Shown here: piece after piece, positions 4,373-13,877 of the stretch
How the letters are laid out: each line of letters starts with the position of its first letter
Numbering within the stretch: position 1 is the first letter of the stretch
From: Rubrivivax gelatinosus IL144
Lineage (GTDB): Bacteria; Pseudomonadota; Gammaproteobacteria; Burkholderiales; Burkholderiaceae_C
Reading direction: 5' to 3'
DNA: 64,000 nucleotides
Assembly (NCBI RefSeq): GCF_000284255.1
Contig: NC_017075.1
Span: forward strand, 744,001-808,000
Notes under the pieces: generated by a model
Database searches by the model: none
What the model saw: the letters and a program-made list of their open reading frames with translations, nothing else
Told to the model about the DNA's origin: nothing
Translations under genes and position numbers: made by a program

Positions 4373-5221
4373 TCAGGTGCCGAGCACCGCGCCGACGACC
4401 TCGTCGAGCGCGGCAGCGGTGTCGGCGTCGTCGGTCAGCGCGTCGACGATCGCGGCGCGGCAGGCCGCGCGCAGCGGCACGCCGCCGGCGGCCAGGCGGG
4501 CGGCCATCACCAGCAGCCGGGTGCTGGCCGTCTCGTCGAGGTCGTGCTCGGTCAGGCGGCGCAGCGCCTGCGCCAGGCGCACCAGGCGCGCGGCCAGGTC
4601 CGGCGCGACGCCGGACTCCATCTCGACGATGCGCGTCTCCAGCACCGGCTCGGGGTAGCCCAGCGTCAGCGCGACGAAACGCTGGCGCGTGCTGGGCTTC
4701 AGGCTCTTCAGCAGGTTCTGGTAGCCCGGGTTGTACGAGACGACGAGCATGAATCCCGGCGGCGCGGCGAGCAGCTCGCCGGTGCGTTCGATCGGCAGCA
4801 CGCGGCGGTCGTCGGCCAGCGGGTGCAGCACGACGGTGGTGTCCTTGCGCGCCTCGACGACCTCGTCGAGGTAGCAGATCGCGCCCTGGCGCACGGCGCG
4901 CGTCAGCGGGCCGTCGGCCCAGACAGTGCCCTGCGCGCCGATCAGGTGGCGGCCCACCAGGTCGGCGGCGGACAGGTCGTCGTGGCAGCTGACGGTGACC
5001 AGCGGGCGGCCCAGGCGGGCCGCCATGTGCTCGACGAAACGGGTCTTGCCGCAGCCGGTGGGGCCCTTCAGCAGCAGCGGCAGCCGCTGCCGCCAGGCCT
5101 GCTCGAACAGCGCCGCCTCGCCCGCCTGCTCGGCGTAGAAGGGCAGCGCAGCCCCGCCGGTGCGGCCGGCGTCGGGCTGGAACAGGTCCAGCCCGAGGGC
5201 GCCGCGTTCGCTCATGTCCAT
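4373..5221 (-). CDS. norQ: NorQ, MoxR-type AAA+ ATPase
   Basis: 282 residues. Walker A is G-P-T-G-C-G-K-T (53-60), Walker B is the I-C-Y-L-D-E-V-V-E-A-R segment, and a V-S-Y-N-P-G-Y sensor region follows, all typical of MoxR/NorQ/CbbQ ATPases. NorQ and NorD form a chaperone pair that activates nitric oxide reductase. It starts 18 bases after norB; AAGGAG sits eight bases before the ATG at 5221, which favours that codon over the one six bases later. Cytoplasmic. Confidence 0.93.
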   Translation of the reverse strand: MDMSERGALGLDLFQPDAGRTGGAALPFYAEQAGEAALFEQAWRQRLPLLLKGPTGCGKTRFVEHMAARLGRPLVTVSCHDDLSAADLVGRHLIGAQGTVWADGPLTRAVRQGAICYLDEVVEARKDTTVVLHPLADDRRVLPIERTGELLAAPPGFMLVVSYNPGYQNLLKSLKPSTRQRFVALTLGYPEPVLETRIVEMESGVAPDLAARLVRLAQALRRLTEHDLDETASTRLLVMAARLAAGGVPLRAACRAAIVDALTDDADTAAALDEVVGAVLGT

Positions 5222-5239
5222 GGCAGCGGCTCCTTCAGC

Positions 5240-7147
<1,908 letters not shown>

Positions 7148-7175
7148 TTATCCTCCTTTTTTGCTCGGGTACTTT

Positions 7176-7193
7176 CCTTGAACCGGTTCAAGG
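7176..7193. promoter_or_regulatory. FNR/DNR-type palindrome between norC and the hemerythrin gene
   Basis: CCTTGAACCGGTTCAAGG is a perfect 18-base palindrome containing TTGAA-N4-TTCAA, close to the FNR/DNR consensus TTGAT-N4-ATCAA. Its centre is 65 bases upstream of norC and 92 bases upstream of the divergent hemerythrin gene, so one site could serve both promoters. The regulator is probably the dnr product. Confidence 0.7.
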
Positions 7194-7276
7194 ATTCGAC
7201 CGGAGGGCCCGGGGGAGCATCCCGACATGGCCCGCGAGCGGCGGGCTGCCCTGTCCCACGCCGAGAGAATCCGACG

Positions 7277-7759
7277 ATGAGCTCTTCCGACAAGGTCCCG
7301 CACGCGGTGGCCGACCTGATCGCCTACATCCTGGTGCGCTTCCACGAGACGCACCGCAGCGAAGTCCCCGAGCTGGTCGCGCAGGCGCGCGTGCTGGCCG
7401 ACGCCGGCGTGCTGCCCGAGCTGGCCGACCATCTGGAGCTGATGGGCGAGGCGCTCGAGGAGCACATGTTCAAGGAGGAGATGCGGCTGTTCCCGATGAT
7501 GGAGCAGGGCGGCGGCACGCTGATCGACCTGCTGCTCGACGACCTGGAACGCGAGCACCGCGCGCACGAGGTCTCGATCGCGCGGCTCGAGGAGCTGCTG
7601 GCCCAGCTGCCGGCCACGCCCGGGGCCGCGCTGCTGGCGGCCGGCTGCCGCAAGTTCGTCGACGACCTGCTGCAGCACGTGGCGGCCGAGGACGGCGACC
7701 TGTTCCTGCGCTTCGGGCCGCGGCGCACGACGGCGGTGGGGCGCGTCGTGCAGCCCTGA
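7277..7759 (+). CDS. hemerythrin-domain protein, RIC/YtfE-like without the N-terminal domain
   Basis: 160 residues forming a four-helix hemerythrin bundle. Likely di-iron ligands appear in order: H in R-F-H-E-T-H, H in L-A-D-H-L-E-L, H and E in E-E-H-M-F-K-E-E, H in E-H-R-A-H-E, and H and E in Q-H-V-A-A-E-D. The spacing matches the C-terminal part of RIC/YtfE/DnrN/NorA proteins, which repair iron-sulphur clusters or bind NO in the cytoplasm. The usual N-terminal ScdA_N (DUF542) domain is missing. Divergent from norC and sharing its FNR-like palindrome, so it is probably induced by NO. Confidence 0.8.
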   Translation: MSSSDKVPHAVADLIAYILVRFHETHRSEVPELVAQARVLADAGVLPELADHLELMGEALEEHMFKEEMRLFPMMEQGGGTLIDLLLDDLEREHRAHEVSIARLEELLAQLPATPGAALLAAGCRKFVDDLLQHVAAEDGDLFLRFGPRRTTAVGRVVQP

Positions 7760-7816
7760 TCGGGGCAGGGTGGCCGCAAGTCCCCTGGCATTCGGCGCGG
7801 CGGCTGCTATTCTTAT

Positions 7817-7833
7817 CTGTACATCTTGTACAG
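7817..7833. promoter_or_regulatory. TGTACA double-palindrome operator of the Phd-like antitoxin unit
   Basis: CTGTACATCTTGTACAG is a perfect inverted repeat with seven-base arms and a three-base spacer; each arm contains the self-complementary hexamer TGTACA. The YefM antitoxin family is known to bind operators with a TGTACA core, and the gene downstream encodes a Phd/YefM-like protein. It ends two to eleven bases before the possible start codons, an ideal place for autorepression. Confidence 0.7.
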
Positions 7834-7843
7834 AATGCCTGTC

Positions 7844-8251
7844 ATGCCCACGCAAGTCCCACACGACACGCTGCCGCCCGACCCGGTGTCGATCGCCGTC
7901 GAGACCGATGTGCAGGTGCTCACGTTCGAGATCGCCGGCGGCGAGATGACGCTGGACGTCGAGCCGGTGGCCGTGGCGTCGGCACGCGCCGACATGCCGG
8001 CGCTGATGCGGCGCTCGGCCGAAACCGGGCGCGGATTCCTGATCCGCAACGCACGCAACCCGGCGGCGGCGTCGGCGCTGCTGATCGATCCCGAGGTGCT
8101 CAAGCGCCGCATCGCCGAGGCGCGGCCGCCGCGCACGCTGGGCCAGCTGGTCGAAGGCCTGCCGTTCCGCGGCCTCGGCGCCAACCCGCTGCTGGACGTG
8201 CCGGCGCTGCCGGATGACGTCCTGCCCGAACTCGAGATCCCGGTGCGATGA
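7844..8251 (+). CDS. Phd/YefM-like antitoxin with N- and C-terminal extensions
   Basis: 135 residues from the ATG at 7844; ATG 7835 and TTG 7826 in the same frame would add three or six residues. The centre (about 43-90) follows the Phd/YefM pattern: V-A-S-A-R-A-D-M-P-A-L-M, a short turn with G-R-G-F-L-I, then A-L-L-I-D-P-E-V-L-K. The acidic, proline-rich ends are longer than in ordinary Phd proteins; the C-terminal tail would be the toxin-binding arm. Its TGA overlaps the ATG of the next gene by four bases. A TGTACA-type operator lies directly upstream. Classification is by pattern only. Confidence 0.65.
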   Translation: MPTQVPHDTLPPDPVSIAVETDVQVLTFEIAGGEMTLDVEPVAVASARADMPALMRRSAETGRGFLIRNARNPAAASALLIDPEVLKRRIAEARPPRTLGQLVEGLPFRGLGANPLLDVPALPDDVLPELEIPVR

Positions 8252-8670
8252 ACTGGCTGCTGCCCGCCCCGACGCTGGCGCAGCTCGTCGCCTCGGTGCC
8301 GACGGCGGCCCAGCGATGGGCGCACGGCGTCGATGCCCGCGCGCTGCGCGTCAGCGTGATCTCCGTGGCCCAGCTGCGCACCCGCATCCAGCTCGAACCG
8401 GCGCCGGCCACGCGGGCCCGGCTGGACGTCGACCTGACGACGCTGCTGGCGCAGATCGAGGCCGACTCGGGCATCGCGCCGCTGGCCTTCAGCGCCGAGC
8501 ACGCGCTGCTCTGGAGCCATCTGTGCCTGGAGCCGACGCTGGCCGGCCTGGCGCAGACCGAGCGCCAGATCTACGCCACGGCGATGTACGAAGGCCTCAC
8601 CGTCGTCGAGCCGGCGCGGCCGCAGCACGCGGCGCTGCAGGCGCTGGGTGTTCGCCTGCATGCACTCTGA
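8248..8670 (+). CDS. FitB/VapC-like PIN-fold protein lacking the catalytic acids
   Basis: 140 residues. The whole chain follows the FitB/VapC PIN layout: a first strand N-W-L-L-P-A-P-T-L where toxins have L-L-D-T-N, then S-V-I-S-V-A-Q-L-R where toxins have S-V-I-T-L-A-E-L-R, and T-E-R-Q-I-Y-A-T-A-M-Y-E-G-L-T-V-V-E where toxins have L-D-A-L-I-A-A-T-A followed by T-R-N-x-x-D-F. So the first Asp is Pro, the Glu is Gln, the third Asp is at best a Glu and the last acid is gone. RNase activity is therefore unlikely. It overlaps the antitoxin by ATGA and the patatin gene downstream. Confidence 0.65.
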   Translation: MNWLLPAPTLAQLVASVPTAAQRWAHGVDARALRVSVISVAQLRTRIQLEPAPATRARLDVDLTTLLAQIEADSGIAPLAFSAEHALLWSHLCLEPTLAGLAQTERQIYATAMYEGLTVVEPARPQHAALQALGVRLHAL

Positions 8671-9679
8671 CCCCGAGACGTCGCAAGGCGAGGGCCTGGA
8701 ACTGCCGGCGCCGCGCAGCAACGCCGCCGACGCCTACGCGCCGCTGCGCGTGCTGTCGCTGACCGGTGGCGGCTTCCGCGGCCTGTTCACGGCGCGCACG
8801 CTGGTCACGCTGTGCCGCCAGGCGCGCCGCGAGGGCCCGCTCGACGGCTGTTTCGACGTCTTCGCCGGCACCTCGATCGGTGGCCTGATGGCCTGTGCGC
8901 TGGCGGTCGGTGTGCCGCCGATGCGGGTGCTCGACGCCATCGACGCCCATGGCCCGCGCGTGTTCCGCAAGCCGGCCGGGGCTTCGATCCGGCGGCTCTT
9001 CTTCGGTGCGCTGTACGACGCCGACAACCTCGCCAAGGCGATCCGCGACTGCCTCGGCGCGCATGCGAACACCCGCCTGTCGGCACTGGAACGCGGCCTG
9101 CTGGTGCCGGCGGTCGACTGGCTTGCGGGCGAACTGCAGGTCTTCCGCAGCGCCTGGTTCGGCCGCGCCCGGACGTCGGACGCGACGCTGCTCGAGGTCT
9201 GCCTGGCGACGTCGGCGGCGCCGACCTACTTCGACGCCGCGCAGATCGACGGCAAGCCGATGCTCGACGGCGGCCTGGCCGCCAACAACCCCGACGCGCT
9301 GGCTCTGCTGGAGATCCTGCGCCGCTTCCCGGCTGCGGCGGCCAGGATCGAGATGCTGAGCCTGGGCACCGCGGGCTTCGCCGCCACGCGCCAGGCCTCG
9401 CAGGCGCGGCGGTCGGCGCTGGGCTGGGCGCCCGACCTGCCGAACTGCATGATCGACCTGCAGGAACGCAGCGCCGCCCGCCAGGCGCAGGCGCTGCTGG
9501 GCACTCGCTACCGCCGCATCAACCACCCGGGTGACGCGAGCGAGGCCTTCACGACGCTGGACACGGCCGACGCCGGCGCCCGCGACCGCCTGCTGCGTGC
9601 CGCCGACGAGGCGGCCGCCGCCGCGTACCGCCAGGACGGTGTCTTCGTCGACCGGATGCTGAGCGCCTCGCGCGCCTGA
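8660..9679 (+). CDS. patatin-like phospholipase (CapV-like)
   Basis: 339 residues from ATG 8660; a GTG at 8648 is an alternative. The catalytic layout of patatins is intact: oxyanion loop G-G-G-F-R-G (36-41), nucleophile elbow G-T-S72-I-G-G, and the dyad aspartate D203 in M-L-D-G-G-L-A-A-N-N-P. It should hydrolyse acyl esters of membrane phospholipids. The size and the F-D-V-F-A-G-T-S region resemble bacterial patatins that serve as anti-phage effectors (CapV), but no cyclic-nucleotide synthase is nearby. The start lies inside the end of the PIN-like gene (11-base overlap), so its translation is coupled to the antitoxin/PIN pair. Confidence 0.85.
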   Translation: MHSDPETSQGEGLELPAPRSNAADAYAPLRVLSLTGGGFRGLFTARTLVTLCRQARREGPLDGCFDVFAGTSIGGLMACALAVGVPPMRVLDAIDAHGPRVFRKPAGASIRRLFFGALYDADNLAKAIRDCLGAHANTRLSALERGLLVPAVDWLAGELQVFRSAWFGRARTSDATLLEVCLATSAAPTYFDAAQIDGKPMLDGGLAANNPDALALLEILRRFPAAAARIEMLSLGTAGFAATRQASQARRSALGWAPDLPNCMIDLQERSAARQAQALLGTRYRRINHPGDASEAFTTLDTADAGARDRLLRAADEAAAAAYRQDGVFVDRMLSASRA

Positions 9680-12840: not shown

Positions 12841-13515
12841 TCAGGCGGCGACCGGGATCATCGGCGTGAACGGGTCCAGCTCATCCAGGGCCAGCTTGCA
12901 GGCGCGGCCGATCAGCACCGCGGCGGCGGCGTAGTAGCCGGTCGCGGCCTTGGCGGCGAGCTGCTCGCAGTGCGCCGGCACCCAGGCCAGCACGTGGCGC
13001 GACAGGAAGCGCAACTGCTGCGCTCGCCAGCGCTGCGCCGCGGCGGCGTCGCCGGCCGCCAGCGCCTCGCCTTCCAGGCGGCACAGATGGGCGACGAAAC
13101 GCAGCTCGTTGCCGAGGTGGTCCGGCGCGCCGAGCGCGGCCATCGCCTCGTAGCCGGCTTCCCGGTACGAGCGCAGCACGTCGAGCACGCGGTCGCCGCC
13201 GGGCGCGGCGCCCAGTGCCGCCGATTCGCAGGGCGGGCTGAGCGTCTCGCCGTGCATCACCATCGACAGCAAGCGCGTGCGGTCGACCGCGAGCACCGTG
13301 GCGCCGCCCGGGTGGCGGCGCGACTTTCGCAGCGCCACCAGCAGGCCGCTCAGTTGCGGCGCCAGGGGGCGCCCGGCTTCGACGGTGGCCAACTCGGTGT
13401 CCAGTTCGTCCAGCCATTGCGGCGTCGGCCGCTCGATCACGACCCGCGCCAGCAGGGCCCACAGGGCCGCCCGCGTCGGGGCCTCGTCTCCGTTATGTAC
13501 TTGCATCTCGCTCAT
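12841..13515 (-). CDS. TorD/DmsD-family chaperone-like protein, orphan
   Basis: 224 residues, all helical. Features of the TorD family: R-A-A-L-W-A-L-L-A-R-V near the N-terminus, and E-L-R-F-V-A-H-L-C-R-L-E-G-E-A in the middle, corresponding to the conserved D-H-L/E-x-E-F-M-A-x-L family signature, then F-L-x-x-H-V-L-A-W-V-P. These proteins help insert the molybdenum cofactor into Tat-exported oxidoreductases. No molybdoenzyme gene is in the window, so the client is unknown. The start at 13515 has only a weak GAAAG site; the ATG nine bases downstream is possible. Confidence 0.7.
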   Translation of the reverse strand: MSEMQVHNGDEAPTRAALWALLARVVIERPTPQWLDELDTELATVEAGRPLAPQLSGLLVALRKSRRHPGGATVLAVDRTRLLSMVMHGETLSPPCESAALGAAPGGDRVLDVLRSYREAGYEAMAALGAPDHLGNELRFVAHLCRLEGEALAAGDAAAAQRWRAQQLRFLSRHVLAWVPAHCEQLAAKAATGYYAAAAVLIGRACKLALDELDPFTPMIPVAA

Positions 13516-13816
13516 GTCGCTTTCACCGTGGCGTGAAGGGAGGGCATCGGGCGTCGAGCAAGGGACGGCCCCGGACTCGCCTCGCGGCTGGAGCGAGGAA
13601 AGAGGGGCCGTGACCTTGATGGAGCGCAGAGTCATTGAATCGCGTTTCCCGGCGGTTGCGGGGGCGTCGACATGAGCCAGATCAAGCGGTGGCGACAGAT
13701 CATCACCCGGGCCGACCGCTGTGCCTTGCGGCACTGCCGAGTCTGTCCCCCTGTCGCCTTGCCGCTGCTGGCCCGTGCCGCCCGCCGGTGCACCACCGGA
13801 GTGAATGATCGTGGCG

Positions 13817-13839
13817 GACAGCCCACCATGTGGGATGTC
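13817..13839. repeat. inverted repeat, second of two tandem hairpins
   Basis: GACA-G-CCCAC-CAT-GTGGG-A-TGTC forms a stem of nine pairs with one mismatch and a three-base loop. It abuts the next hairpin with no gap. On the minus strand it is the second structure after the kinase stop codon. Confidence 0.6.
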
Positions 13840-13860
13840 ACCCCCTAGTAAATAGGGGGT
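13840..13860 (-). terminator. hairpin downstream of the P-loop kinase gene
   Basis: ACCCCCTA and TAGGGGGT form a perfect eight-pair stem with loop GTAAA (plus strand). It starts 17 bases beyond the kinase stop codon and probably terminates that transcript. No T-run follows. Confidence 0.5.
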
Positions 13861-13877
13861 TGCGCCCACGAACACCC

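Follow-up and report, generated by a model that had tools for sequence, protein, structure and literature searches.

The unit at positions 7818–9679 of the window (the whole 64-kb stretch of DNA analysed) begins with a palindromic operator, followed by three genes that encode an antitoxin-like protein, a PIN-fold protein without catalytic acids and an intact patatin. Such units occur in several lineages of proteobacteria, and the patatin belongs to a type of membrane lipid-cleaving enzyme that is deployed against viruses. Sequence comparison supports this trio well as a real, conserved module in which known families take a new arrangement. No account of an antitoxin/pseudo-PIN/patatin trio was found in the literature searched, a body of text that excludes most subscription papers and bioRxiv.

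Gene Organization and Predicted Operator

The first gene (7844–8251, plus strand) encodes a putative Phd/YefM-like antitoxin of 135 residues. Its start may be ATG 7835 or ATG 7844, while TTG 7826 falls inside the operator; upstream starts would give 138 or 141 residues. The second gene (8248–8670, plus strand) encodes a non-catalytic PIN-fold protein of 140 residues, which we call the pseudo-PIN. The third (8660–9679, plus strand, with GTG 8648 as an alternative start) encodes a 339-residue patatin-like phospholipase of the CapV/CBASS_lipase family. The preliminary description had given an ATGA overlap between the antitoxin-like and PIN-like genes and an 11-base overlap between the PIN-like gene and the patatin gene, and the ORF coordinates confirm both.

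The antitoxin and PIN family assignments come from relatives, because the window's own proteins lack such matches. The window's antitoxin matched no Pfam family, and the profile of its family, compared with solved structures, matched no antitoxin. Among 17 antitoxin relatives, six matched PF02604 at E ≤ 0.1, the best at 1.4e-4 (22 bits against a gathering score of 29.8). The position of the gene is constant, since a Phd-like gene lies 5' of the PIN gene in every trio.

The predicted operator, TGTACA-N3-TGTACA (TGTACATCTTGTACA), lies at 7818–7832, a palindrome whose TGTACA-containing arms had already been recognised. The assignment draws on motif counts and on the same site in relatives: the 64-kb window contains this 15-mer a single time in exact form, and allowing for one or two mismatches yields two matches versus 0.12 expected. 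As in type II toxin–antitoxin loci, a palindromic operator is thus predicted from sequence at a candidate promoter. A possible −10 element, TATTCT (7808–7813, plus strand), was picked by eye directly 5' of the operator, and this assignment is weak because a sigma-70 consensus scan at the unit found no promoter. By eye, the same place is occupied by TATTAT in genome G769 and by TATAGT in G716.

Apart from the computed counts, operator motifs of the relatives were read by eye. Units of clade I of the patatin tree (window, G716, G769 and G576/JALHMQ) carry TGTAC-N5-GTACA just 5' of the start, and in G716 a 15-mer identical to that of the window precedes the same gene. In clade II, G186 has two TGTACA sites that are further apart, and the other five units (G127, G004, G613, G330 and G676) are without TGTACA there and have TGGTCA/TGACCA elements instead; the arrangement TGGTCA-N3-TGACCA in G127, G330 and G676 keeps the 6-3-6 layout of the window. 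The plasmid units of Sphingobium and Qipengyuania have GTGGCCAC flanking TTGACA on both sides. For YefM operators, a pair of TGTACA cores with a spacing of 12 bp has been described (PMC7730913). Both the yefM–yoeB operator and that of the window are TGTACA palindromes at a promoter, a candidate one in the window, but the centre-to-centre spacing is 12 bp in yefM–yoeB (PMC7730913) and 9 bp in the window, and five related units have TGGTCA/TGACCA elements in place of TGTACA.

The Pseudo-PIN Family

Alone, the window's PIN-like protein gave no useful match, and Pfam returned only CedA at E = 0.11. The search for its relatives recovered 30 proteins, including the query's own copy; 26 were aligned with the window protein to give 27 sequences. 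PF01850 was matched by 10 of 23 PIN-like relatives at E ≤ 0.1 (best 3.5e-6), the family profile matched solved FitB (2h1c, 2h1o and 2bsq; best 1.4e-5), and hhalign comparison with an active-PIN profile gave a probability of 98.5 (E = 1.6e-15). These sequence profiles point to a PIN fold, the lack of which the preliminary description had named as grounds for dropping its reading.

The conserved acids of FitB are given as Asp5, Glu42, Asp104 and Asp122 (PMC5086665). The window protein fails this four-acid pattern of PIN toxins, with Pro6, Gln42, Glu105 and no fourth acid. This agrees with the earlier reading of Pro for the first Asp, Gln for the Glu and a missing final Asp, which was silent on the third acid, Asp in 22 of the 27 aligned sequences. 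The first Asp is absent from all 27 (LLPAQT or similar versus the LLDTN of active PINs) and is replaced by P, G or S in all ten members with gene context. Glu is kept at the second position in 9 of 27 members, and the final Asp is lost in the family. For two pairs of related genomes, dN/dS of the pseudo-PIN was 0.28 and 0.11 (NG86) or 0.08 and 0.04 (YN00). These values indicate purifying selection on the pseudo-PIN in both genome pairs; the family is conserved, and the gene does not have the look of a decaying one.

Separately, a PIN relative in G328 (locus L012) has His for the first catalytic Asp (LVHTNVL) and no adjoining patatin.

Association with the Patatin and Distribution

Pseudo-PIN searches of partly overlapping family, order and class samples (200, 399, 399 and 369 genomes) recovered ten members lacking the first Asp (D-less) in ten genomes: that of the window, G576 (MAG JALHMQ, locus L006), G769, G186, G127, G716, G004, G613, G330 and G676. 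Each has a patatin gene directly downstream, compared with none of the 60 other PIN hits with gene context (Fisher p = 2.8e-11, with relatedness ignored and the truncated L059 counted as D-less in the test). Among these 60, 58 keep the Asp, one has His (L012) and one is cut short (L059); the absence of a patatin holds within the stored flank, mostly ~1.4 kb. The preliminary description would have been abandoned had the PIN-like protein never occurred with a patatin, and the opposite was found for all ten D-less PINs. It had also proposed a search for the three-gene neighbourhood in other genomes, and the neighbourhood proved to be conserved in the ten genomes and in plasmid loci.

An eleventh genome, G1502, carries a near-copy of the trio. 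The same gene order was read at four loci on alphaproteobacterial plasmids, located through a patatin query, in Sphingobium, Qipengyuania, Rhizobium leguminosarum and Rhizobium sp. L51/94. The middle gene of L51/94 is very divergent (hmmsearch E = 0.048), so its assignment as a pseudo-PIN rests on position. Plasmid searches with the pseudo-PINs of the window, G004 and G186 found none, and all eight plasmid records matched by the Sphingobium pseudo-PIN have an adjoining patatin, judged from coordinates. As indirect evidence, 11 of 29 pseudo-PIN homologues apparently share a genome with a patatin relative, among the matches listed.

Within genera the trio is patchy: it was present in 2/7 genomes of one genus, as two different subtypes, and in 3/7 and 1/8 genomes in samples of two others. 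A phylum sample of 398 genomes contained 25 patatins at E ≤ 1e-30, two of which (window and G330) belong to trios. Upstream sequence at 22 non-trio loci contained no pseudo-PIN or antitoxin match, and the 23rd locus (L129) came without upstream sequence. This patchy presence is consistent with a mobile module that is gained and lost. In viral contigs, the search with the pseudo-PIN alignment yielded 41 stretches and no relative. Phage records contained no pseudo-PIN; six had distant patatins, five of them from Wolbachia phages. No natural PIN–patatin fusion was present among the best 120 of 296 patatins, and the one long patatin among these (476 aa) carries only the patatin label in Pfam.

Two kinds of patatin locus were set aside. 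The Klebsiella/Enterobacter plasmid patatins L101 and L136 do not belong to this unit, given their TIR neighbours and 230-residue N-terminal part, and Rhodanobacter L105 has a patatin without the trio. In L101 and L136, several TIR-domain genes lie alongside a 538-residue patatin, the 230-residue N-terminal part of which is unrelated; both bear the label CBASS phospholipase, the sequence read around them contains no annotated cyclase, and they possibly represent another mislabelled system.

Catalytic Motifs and Phylogeny of the Patatin

Alignment placed the nucleophile motif of the window patatin, G-T-S-I-G with Ser72, at 8867–8881 (plus strand) and its D-G-G motif with Asp203 at 9266–9274 (plus strand). 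The earlier statement that G-x-S-x-G and D-G-G are kept (G-T-S72-I-G74 and D203-G-G) thus holds, and it extends to 14 of the 14 PIN-linked patatins aligned. The protein matches PF01734 at 5.8e-23 and scores 209.2 bits against the CBASS_lipase model NF041079 (cut-off 200). It also matches the PADLOC ‘Effector, Phospholipase’ models, which we take to belong to CBASS, at 1.8e-67. The solved structures that it matches best go by the names patatin, ‘CBASS cGAMP-activated phospholipase’ (one entry) and CapV; the second of these names is also the annotation at three of the four plasmid trio loci read. NF041079 exceeded its cut-off in all ten proteins scored, comprising eight PIN-linked patatins, one taken as CBASS-linked and one stand-alone; the stand-alone L031 reached 298.7 bits and the PIN-linked L006 200.3. 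Since stand-alone and PIN-linked patatins both score above the cut-off, the name of the model says little about the presence of a cyclase.

Of the 47 patatins placed in a tree, the 14 that are PIN-linked form one clade (support 99/98). Four sequences taken as CBASS-linked, a status assigned by eye from the upstream ORFs, form another, and 11 patatins without a pseudo-PIN adjoin the PIN clade under midpoint rooting. The tree excludes L030 and L033, which are near-copies of L028 with stops flagged in their matches, L110, which coincides in place with L032, the other patatins of the window genome and the plasmid loci L132–L135.

Similar patatins without the trio occur at L028, L030, L033 and L111, each preceded by an ORF of 74–99 residues, which we presume may be of DUF2188 type.

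Resemblance between Antitoxin and Patatin Tails

The C-terminal tail of the window antitoxin contains ELEIPVR (8228–8248, plus strand), and the N-terminal tail of the patatin contains GLELPAPR (8693–8716, plus strand). The window pair alone is at chance level (shuffle p = 0.75), and the resemblance is significant over the set of loci. The 14 PIN-linked patatins have 13–45 residues before the core, depending on the start chosen, compared with 5, 5, 16 and 16 in four patatins adjoining a DncV-like cyclase gene. A hydrophobic-x-hydrophobic-Pro motif was present in this N-terminal tail in 63 of the 101 close patatin homologues that have such a tail, versus a mean of 21.9 and a maximum of 31 in 200 shuffles, with LRVPxPR as the typical form. 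By eye, the antitoxin end often bears a similar motif that varies with that of the patatin. The antitoxin/patatin pairs are FTLP/FTLP (G004, G613), FKLP/FQLP (G127), IDVP/FDVP (G330), LRVP/LRIP (G576), LRLP/LRVP (G716), YALG/YRLG (G186) and LEIP/LELP (window); Rhizobium L51/94 has no such motif.

We then scored the best 7-residue match between the last 45 residues of the antitoxin and the pre-core segment of the patatin, comparing true with exchanged partners; the test was designed after the pattern had been noticed and was run on the same loci. True partners scored higher over 14 loci (p = 6e-5), over 12 non-redundant loci (p = 1.3e-4 with free exchange, 8.7e-4 exchanging within clades) and over the eight non-plasmid loci (p = 2e-4 and 2e-3, respectively). 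Nine control segment pairings gave p values of 0.02–0.96, the lowest (0.023/0.039) for the antitoxin tail against patatin residues 201–231. Individually, 6 of 14 loci fell below 0.05 against 500 shuffles. The best seven residues were not, or only partly, the hydrophobic-x-hydrophobic-Pro motif in G576, G769, Qipengyuania, R. leguminosarum and Sphingobium. A comparison of 6-mers gave p = 2.5e-5, a value that is illustrative because the 6-mers were picked by eye and two of the ten pairs were joined indirectly; the test on their middle positions within single clades gave p = 0.10 and 0.08. Over the set as a whole, the C-terminal tail of an antitoxin is thus similar in sequence to the N-terminal tail of the patatin from its own locus.

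Discussion

With our confidence evenly divided for and against, we propose that the trio is a three-component, toxin–antitoxin-like module whose toxic activity no longer resides in the PIN protein but has passed to the CapV-family patatin, and that the pseudo-PIN serves as an adaptor for both tails. Somewhat more tentatively, the dead nuclease toxin may work as a peptide-competition switch, its groove reading one short linear motif of both the antitoxin and the phospholipase that mimics it; the phospholipase would then be a defence-like membrane effector with no need of a second messenger. The Phd-like protein would repress its own promoter, and its C-terminal tail would sit in the pseudo-PIN groove, in the manner of antitoxin tails bound to active PIN toxins. 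FitAB/VapBC antitoxins are described as having a C-terminal toxin-binding region or tail (PMC5086665). The N-terminal tail of the patatin would imitate that of the antitoxin, and the adaptor would accommodate the tail of one partner or the other, or in a PIN dimer both at once. Loss of the labile antitoxin through phage shut-off of host synthesis, proteolysis or stress would change the occupancy of the pseudo-PIN, and the phospholipase would then be released or assembled and damage the membrane. We infer both the switch and an anti-phage role of the trio from sequence. The preliminary description had suggested that an old toxin–antitoxin pair controls the phospholipase; the conserved dead PIN, its patatin neighbour in ten of ten cases and the single patatin clade lend this suggestion strong comparative support, with the mode of control being presumptive.

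An alternative to which we give a distinctly lower probability is that the antitoxin and the pseudo-PIN together form a two-part antitoxin of the patatin, where the pseudo-PIN would block the lipase and the shared tail motif would act as a docking signal for assembly. It draws on the same conservation data, namely the trio, the patatin clade and the association with D-less PINs, and the overlapping genes of the window would suit coupled translation. By itself, however, it does not explain why the antitoxin and patatin tails are alike locus by locus.

It is improbable, in our estimate, that the patatin still responds to cGAMP or a related nucleotide, whether the phage or a source elsewhere supplies it, with the first two genes only setting expression. 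The NF041079 scores, in the window patatin as in all ten proteins scored, and the structure matches to CapV and the ‘CBASS cGAMP-activated phospholipase’ would agree with such an effector. The unit itself, read by its ORFs, has no cyclase gene, and a search of the window genome for SMODS CD-NTases, the one cyclase family covered, found none. Among the nine other triad genomes, SMODS proteins were found in G576 alone, where two are encoded on the contig of the unit at distances of ~87 and ~89 kb; this also suits a nucleotide signal. Against it, 9 of the 10 triad genomes are without a SMODS protein, some of them being drafts ~90% complete, and the PIN-linked patatins form their own clade. Within the limits of the SMODS family, the missing cyclase supports the earlier view that the module works without a nucleotide signal.

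The possibility of a stress lipase, which would remodel membranes in the context of nitric oxide or low-oxygen physiology and not of phage, appears slightly more doubtful still. In the window, the unit lies among norQ-, norB- and norC-like genes in the 4373–7759 region (minus strand; Pfam AAA_5/CbbQ_C, COX1 and cytochrome c, the nor names being our assumption). A hemerythrin-domain gene (7277–7759, plus strand) directly precedes it, a nitrate reductase delta-type gene lies at 12841–13875, and no defence gene was recognised alongside. In G004, genes for a norB-type reductase and an anaerobic ribonucleotide reductase precede the unit, and by eye G613 has the same order. Other units lie elsewhere, however, near an integrase (G576), Polbeta/HepT-like genes (G186) or a TacA-type antitoxin (G716), with the remaining units near other genes as judged by eye, and the plasmid trios adjoin AbiEii, a PIN_12 protein, Piwi and HEPN/Toprim genes; the patchy presence inside genera also argues against a role of this kind. 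Defence or toxin–antitoxin genes adjoin some relatives only, and an anti-phage role, which the preliminary description had likened to abortive infection, may be conjectured from some of these neighbourhoods together with the effector family. A chance neighbourhood or a decaying vapBC remnant is very improbable: the lost catalytic residues are all that favours it, and the conserved trio, purifying selection and single patatin clade oppose it.

Among known systems, the trio resembles VapBC/FitAB, and VapB5–VapC5 in particular, in its antitoxin–PIN order, overlapping genes, palindromic operator and FitB profile match; VapB5 has been classed under Phd_YefM and its toxin under PIN (PMC5086665). It differs in its PIN protein, which has lost the first and final Asp and keeps Glu in a minority of members, and in the patatin that follows as a third gene in the trio loci examined. 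With CBASS loci that use a CapV-type phospholipase it shares the effector family, as judged by NF041079 and the PADLOC models. Unlike the CBASS plasmid loci L132–L135, annotated with DncV-like and ThiF proteins, the trio has no adjoining CD-NTase or ThiF gene, and its patatins form a separate clade with a longer N-terminal tail than the four patatins next to a DncV-like cyclase gene.

Three-component toxin–antitoxin systems include toxin–antitoxin pairs with a chaperone. The omega–epsilon–zeta system is likewise named tripartite (PMC4803016). The trio is similar in adding a third component to a toxin–antitoxin pair, but in the trio the likely effector is the component that was added, and the inert part is what used to be the toxin. 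Among the systems found by DefensePredictor, DS-2 has a phospholipase and DS-3 and DS-5 have PIN domains (PMC13092281). According to the parts of that source available to us, DS-2 is a CBASS with cyclases, the PIN domains of DS-3 and DS-5 need their catalytic residues, unlike the pseudo-PIN, and none of the three is described as joining a PIN protein and a phospholipase as the trio does (PMC13092281).

For annotation, the trio exposes a trap, as the curated CBASS_lipase model exceeds its cut-off on trio patatins and on a stand-alone patatin alike. The proposed tail mimicry offers a direct and inexpensive test of the mechanism. If the proposed switch is correct, a toxin–antitoxin pair would have been rewired so that the toxin became the regulator of an unrelated effector, and a phospholipase of the CBASS family would be controlled without a cyclic nucleotide. 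Some of the patatins that now carry a CBASS effector annotation would then belong to a class of their own, switched by protein.
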